Source of the DNA: Thermococcus sp. CX2
GTDB taxonomy: Archaea; Methanobacteriota_B; Thermococci; Thermococcales; Thermococcaceae
Assembly: GCF_012027555.1 (NCBI RefSeq)
Contig: NZ_SNUQ01000001.1
Location: forward strand, 372,001-436,000
DNA length: 64,000 nt
Reading direction: 5' to 3'
Shown: positions 34,191 through 34,796 of the stretch, in pieces
Layout of the letters: each line of letters starts with the position of its first letter
Numbering within the stretch: the stretch's first letter is position 1
Notes under the pieces: generated by a model
The model's input: the letters and a program-made list of their open reading frames with translations, nothing else
Told to the model about the DNA's origin: nothing
The model's database searches: none
Position numbers and translations under genes: made by a program

Positions 34191-34709
34191 ATGGGAAAGT
34201 TCATCATCTACTACTACCTCCACAAACTGACGGACGAGCCAATAAGCGTCCGCGCAAGGAGATTTGAGGAAGATTTGGAAAGCTATATCAGGCTCGTGAA
34301 TCCTGATGACTTCACCCTGCTAGAAAACGCGAGGGGACTCCTCAAAGAGTCCAAGGAAATATATGTAATCGAGTTGAGCGACGGAGTTAGCAGATGGTTC
34401 TACCTGACGGACAAGGAGTTCAAGTGGATAGAAAAGCCCACGCTCGCCTACGAGTATGAAGTAGGAAAGTGGAAGGGCCTTGAGGTAGTTTTCAATGAAA
34501 TCATAGACGAGAAATTTAAGGGGAAGTGGAGCTCCGACAGAATATCGTGGCTTCTCCAGGGACTATTATGGGGAAGCTTCTTCCTCATGAGTTATCTCGG
34601 ATACAGAAACGAAGAACTCGAAAAGGTCTCCAACTACCTGCCCCTTATACTCCTCATCTCCGGAACAATAGAGGGCCTGAGGAGAGGCTACAAGAGGAGG
34701 AGAAGATAG
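34191..34709 (+). CDS. Hypothetical protein with two C-terminal membrane helices
   Basis: Protein of 172 residues that I do not recognise. The first 110 residues are soluble and mixed alpha/beta (starting KFIIYYYLHKLTDEPISV, including FTLLENARGLLKESKE). Two hydrophobic segments follow (about 120-138 and 148-162), ending in the basic tail RRGYKRRRR. It would be a cytoplasmic-facing domain on a membrane hairpin. It lies 38 bp after gatE with a possible TATA (CTTTTAACT at 34156) that would give a nearly leaderless start. It converges on the sRNA and hmgA. Confidence 0.55.
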   Translation: MGKFIIYYYLHKLTDEPISVRARRFEEDLESYIRLVNPDDFTLLENARGLLKESKEIYVIELSDGVSRWFYLTDKEFKWIEKPTLAYEYEVGKWKGLEVVFNEIIDEKFKGKWSSDRISWLLQGLLWGSFFLMSYLGYRNEELEKVSNYLPLILLISGTIEGLRRGYKRRRR

Positions 34710-34764
34710 GTCAGAGCATCGGCTCCTCATCACTTGTCAGAGTGAGGGAAATGGTCATCATCCC
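34709..34764 (-). ncRNA. C/D box sRNA (2'-O-methylation guide), predicted
   Basis: On the minus strand: box C ATGATGA (34755-34761), a 14-nt D' guide (34741-34754), box D' CTGA (34737-34740), 3 nt, box C' GTGATGA (34727-34733), a 12-nt D guide (34715-34726), and box D CTGA (34711-34714). Flanking GG and CC can close the terminal k-turn stem. This is the exact layout of archaeal C/D sRNAs, which with L7Ae, Nop5 and fibrillarin direct 2'-O-methylation. The D' guide matches the conserved 23S segment GUGAGGGAAA over 10 bases, and the +5 rule points to the A after GUG. The D guide target is unknown. A TATA-like box lies about 25 bp upstream. Confidence 0.8.
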
Positions 34765-34785
34765 CAGAACACATTTCTTCGAGGA

Positions 34786-34796
34786 TTTTTAAGCGT
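34786..34796 (-). promoter_or_regulatory. TATA-like box of the C/D sRNA
   Basis: On the minus strand CTTAAAAAT is centred about 25 bp before the predicted 5' end near 34765, just after the hmgA stop. The sRNA may also be processed from the hmgA 3' end. Confidence 0.45.

Follow-up and report, generated by a model that had tools for sequence, protein, structure and literature searches.

A predicted double-guide C/D box sRNA gene downstream of hmgA in Thermococcus sp. CX2 with putative targets U446 and A498 in domain I of 23S rRNA

The intergenic region downstream of hmgA in Thermococcus sp. CX2 contains a C/D box sRNA gene of about 58 nt (34708–34765, minus strand). Positions refer to the window, i.e. 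the whole stretch of 64,000 nt that was analysed. It is highly probable that this sRNA is a double guide for 2'-O-methylation of U446 and A498 in domain I of the 23S rRNA. The basis for this assignment is the anatomy of the sRNA, a promoter-like box, the in-register complementarity of both guides to 23S rRNA, the conservation of the pairing bases and the presence of Nop5 and fibrillarin genes. From these features we infer transcription, RNP assembly and methylation. The sRNA is an ordinary further member of a large and well-known class; this genome thereby gains a guide RNA that had no annotation, with both targets assigned from the organism's own rRNA.

The gene is located in a 108-nt gap between the stop codon of hmgA and the end of a convergent ORF. 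The hmgA reading frame (36077–34818) was named as such in a first-pass annotation of the sequence, and the Pfam match to HMG-CoA_red (HMG-CoA reductase, E 1.4e-144) agrees with this. Its stop codon lies approximately 50 nt upstream of the sRNA on the same strand. The convergent ORF (34191–34709, plus strand) encodes 172 amino acids, terminates no more than 2 nt from the 3' end of the sRNA and gave no match in a Pfam search. In many relatives such an ORF, fast-evolving and often only 24–35% identical, separates gatE from the sRNA.

The complete minus-strand sequence (34765–34708) reads GGGG ATGATGA CCATTTCCCTCACT CTGA CAA GTGATGA GGAGCCGATGCT CTGA CCT. The C box ATGATGA (34755–34761) is followed by the 14-nt D' guide CCATTTCCCTCACT (34741–34754), the D' box CTGA (34737–34740), the 3-nt spacer CAA (34734–34736), the C' box GTGATGA (34727–34733), the 12-nt D guide GGAGCCGATGCT (34715–34726) and the D box CTGA (34711–34714). 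All boxes were placed by sequence and by an alignment of 47 copies. Their order corresponds to the consensus for a C/D sRNA of 50–70 nt (C RUGAUGA, D' CUGA, C' RUGAUGA, D CUGA). The arms GGG (34763–34765) and CCT (34708–34710) form a terminal stem of just 3 bp, two G-C and one G-U; both arms are supported by the sequence and the alignment with the Rfam model RF00095, the 5' arm also by our own covariance model. Single-strand folding of the sRNA is unremarkable (z −0.35), as expected since C/D sRNAs have nearly no Watson-Crick pairs. A TATA-like promoter element, CTTAAAAAT (34793–34785, minus strand), was read from the sequence; its centre precedes the RNA 5' end by about 24 nt. TTTAAA- or TTAAAA-like boxes occur at a similar upstream distance in most orthologues. 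The first-pass annotation had described the four boxes in order, guides of 14 and 12 nt, the 3-nt spacer, the short stem and the TATA-like box at this position; direct reading of the sequence confirms each of them.

The four-box pattern occurs once in the 64-kb window and in none of 100 dinucleotide shuffles. In the whole 1.8-Mb genome it was found five times, versus zero for a reversed-pattern control. Four more four-box C/D sRNA candidates (L067, L068, L069 and L070) are present outside the window.

The organism's own 23S and 16S genes were located, and each guide was then scanned against the RNA strand. The best match of the D' guide is 23S 495–504 (GUGAGGGAAA), which forms 10 Watson-Crick pairs with the block TTTCCCTCAC (34751–34742); the fifth base upstream of D' faces A498. 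The ten-base match to this segment had already been proposed at first pass, together with a target A predictable by the +5 rule, and both hold for the 23S rRNA of this organism. The D guide had been left unassigned. Its best match is 23S 443–453 (GCAUCGGCUCC) with 11 Watson-Crick pairs and an additional G-U pair at 442, and its fifth base faces U446. A guide is expected to form at least 9–10 bp with rRNA or tRNA in the +5 register, and lack of any match of nine or more pairs had been named at first pass as grounds for giving up the sRNA reading; the two guides give 10 and 11 contiguous Watson-Crick pairs in this register. The computed duplex energies are −17.2 kcal/mol for the D' guide and −23.4 kcal/mol for the D guide.

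Among 1000 shuffled guides, none matched as well as the D guide with its 11 bp, and 48 reached the 10 bp of the D' guide. The predicted D target is thus a strong assignment on its own. For the D' duplex on its own, a chance origin is only moderately improbable (4.8%), hence the assignment of A498 leans also on proximity and conservation. The genome contains the 11-mer D target three times, once in 23S, once antisense within the sRNA gene and once elsewhere, which is fewer than the 11 occurrences of the reversed control. The predicted targets 446 and 498 lie 52 nt apart in domain I of the same 23S rRNA. For archaeal double guides target sites within 100 nt are typical (PMC7994747), but not obligatory. 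Much of domain I has been described as less densely occupied by methylation targets (PMC4644070), and a RiboMeth-seq data set exists for P. furiosus (GSE153501; PMC7758197).

One DNA search and two pattern searches for homologues gave matches throughout Thermococcaceae. With a covariance model built from 24 variants, the window sRNA itself scores 81.5 bits (E 4.7e-21). Of the 94 Thermococcales genomes, 47 contain an intact orthologue with a score of at least 75 bits. These are 31 of the 61 genomes of the window's genus, all 9 of g12, a genus that is probably Pyrococcus, 6 of 7 in g14 and 1 of 3 in g11. No match of at least 75 bits was obtained in g13 (0/13) and g15 (0/1). The scores are separated by a clean gap, with three matches at 43–50 bits and the remainder below 33 bits, the range where other C/D sRNAs score. 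One orthologue is found in G064 (230633–230690, plus strand), another in G011 (795508–795566, minus strand). G011 is T. kodakarensis, because its matches at 1446212 and 1371729 coincide with sR49 and sR46 of this species (PMC9014305). Synteny is shared by g14 and the window's genus: hmgA is followed by the sRNA, the small convergent ORF and gatE.

The alignment of 47 copies lacks one genome that was missed by the regular expression and contains G024 twice; the contig B21_G6 in it probably duplicates G070. All 47 copies have the same D guide block GGAGCCGATGC, and the D' block is retained in 46 of them, the sole change being a C to T that still permits a G-U pair. Variable positions are the D' guide bases 5' of the duplex, the spacer and the nucleotide beside the D box. 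Thus, the conserved blocks end where the predicted duplexes end. Neither 23S target stretch differs among the 60 genomes in which a match was readable.

Since the anatomy, the register of both guides and the adjacent fibrillarin and Nop5 genes found in this genome all point to a double-guide RNP, we propose the following function. The locus would be transcribed independently as a double-guide C/D box sRNA. L7Ae would occupy the kink-turn formed by C/D as well as the k-loop formed by C'/D', and Nop5–fibrillarin dimers would dock on the sRNA. The D guide would pair with 23S rRNA 442–453 and the D' guide with 495–504, whereupon fibrillarin would methylate the ribose 2'-OH opposite the fifth base upstream of D and D', i.e. 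U446 and A498.

Alignment to E. coli rrlB places U446 at about C413 and A498 at about A466. U446 is located in the loop of the 23S hairpin GGGAG-GCAUCGG-CUCCC. The loop residues U446-C447-G448-G449 are complementary to C2504-C2505-G2506-G2507 with one G-U pair, and this pairing is the aligned counterpart of 413–416/2407–2410 (CCAU/AUGG) in E. coli, which we take to be a domain I–domain V tertiary contact in the ribosome. This complementarity would suit an sRNA that acts mainly as an rRNA folding chaperone, with methylation as a secondary function: the D guide would mask the loop U446–G449, which is later paired with 2504–2507, and the double pairing would keep 442–504 open until release. Such a role has been proposed for double guides (PMC4644070; PMC7994747). 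However, the +5 register and the box geometry are precisely those of methylation guides, and genomes without the sRNA retain the same rRNA sequence, so a chaperone is not strictly needed. A predominantly chaperoning sRNA is therefore unlikely.

The position about 50 nt past the hmgA stop codon and on the same strand would also fit a kink-turn in the hmgA 3' UTR to which L7Ae binds for regulation or protection of the mRNA, with no free guide RNA being formed. C/D-like kink-turns can act in cis, as described for 5' regions (PMC4247193). We rejected this explanation as very improbable, since the sRNA has its own TATA-like box, persists where hmgA is not adjacent, namely in the probable Pyrococcus genomes and as the second copy of G024, and has two guides whose conservation follows 23S rRNA base by base. 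A decayed, non-functional remnant, as three relatives hold at the same place and as might be suspected where many have lost the gene, is even less credible and was rejected because none of the elements (four boxes, two guides, stem, TATA-like box) is damaged in this genome.

The double-guide sRNA is the preferred reading; its place among known families was examined with Rfam. At curated thresholds no match was found in the whole window. At a relaxed threshold, RF00095 (snoPyro_CD, the Pyrococcus C/D box RNAs) aligns from its first to its last position with 44.9 bits versus a gathering cut-off of 45.0. Length, box layout and terminal stem are the same as in the window sRNA. The sRNA is unannotated because this score falls 0.1 bit below the cut-off, and the case demonstrates how an intact gene can be hidden by the curated threshold of an RNA family by so small a margin. 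Eight orthologous loci scanned with RF00095 all exceed the cut-off (46.7–55.4 bits); the T. kodakarensis orthologue scores only 32.6 bits. RF00095 is a broad catch-all model with hits to dozens of different C/D sRNAs in each Pyrococcus genome; the match is thus evidence for the class of the sRNA and does not name this orthologue. The Pyrococcus families sR3, sR17, sR1, sR15 and sR5 resemble the window sRNA in boxes and size but differ in their guides, and membership in any of them was rejected (20–22 bits versus thresholds of 36–45). A run of snoscan or of an archaeal C/D covariance model and an alignment of the guides to the organism's 16S, 23S and tRNAs had been suggested at first pass. Taken with the order of motifs and the conservation in 47 genomes, the Rfam fit and the guide–rRNA complementarity uphold the C/D box sRNA reading put forward there.

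Of the published inventories, a Pyrococcus set of 46 C/D sRNAs is attributed to Gaspin et al. 2000 in PMC7994747. For T. kodakarensis, whose genome contains an orthologue of the window sRNA, 54 verified C/D RNAs (PMC4247193) and 61 (PMC9014305) have been given. Table 1 of PMC9014305, on circular sRNAs, does not list this orthologue, and searching the literature for the guide sequences themselves gave no hit. The Pyrococcus and T. kodakarensis orthologues are probably already on published sRNA lists.

Decayed copies with broken or missing boxes were found near hmgA and/or gatE in G033, G030 and G088 (L101, L102 and L103, respectively). These copies represent gene loss caught under way. Where the gene is absent, neither guide was found in box context elsewhere in the genome with two strict patterns, which shifted or wobble-rich guides would escape, and the 23S target is unchanged wherever readable. 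The gene appears dispensable because it is absent from nearly half the order. Loss of the gene, an unchanged target and no replacement guide lead us to predict that both methylations are dispensable and have been lost repeatedly.

The C'/D' kink-turn pair 3b.3n, defined here as the fifth base of C' and the second base of D', is U.U in 32 of the 47 copies, C.C in 10, C-G in 4 and U-A in 1, and mixed U/C pairs do not occur among them. At the C/D motif the same position is U.U in 45 copies and U/C in two rows that probably represent one genome. The 3b.3n pair affects ion-driven folding of kink-turns (PMC4382518, PMC5689011), and archaeal box C/D kink-turns strongly prefer U.U at this position. 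Outgroups carry U.U. A gatE tree made quickly from 690 nt, without support values, spreads the C.C and C-G copies over more than one branch; hence more than one coordinated change at C'/D' 3b.3n is likely. Only tentatively, and with more doubt than confidence, we suggest that one archaeal order is losing, in place and on several occasions, a double guide whose rRNA target is invariant, with coordinated switching at C'/D' 3b.3n. If this is true, Thermococcales would be a natural experiment on the worth of one rRNA methylation pair at high temperature, of which one methylation falls in the domain I–domain V loop contact. Since the target is unchanged where the gene has been lost, methylation and growth of species with and without it would bear on whether a single double guide matters.

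In g12 the sRNA is located elsewhere, near snoR9 RNA at least in L035 and L037. The snoR9 RNA (RF00065) lies on the opposite strand in the same 3-kb stretch in L035 (1313–1439, minus strand), at a distance of about 58 nt from the sRNA, and also in L036, L037 and L041, all from probable Pyrococcus. G024 contains two intact copies (L008 and L024) approximately 31 kb apart with similar downstream flanks, one of them beside hmgA and one not.
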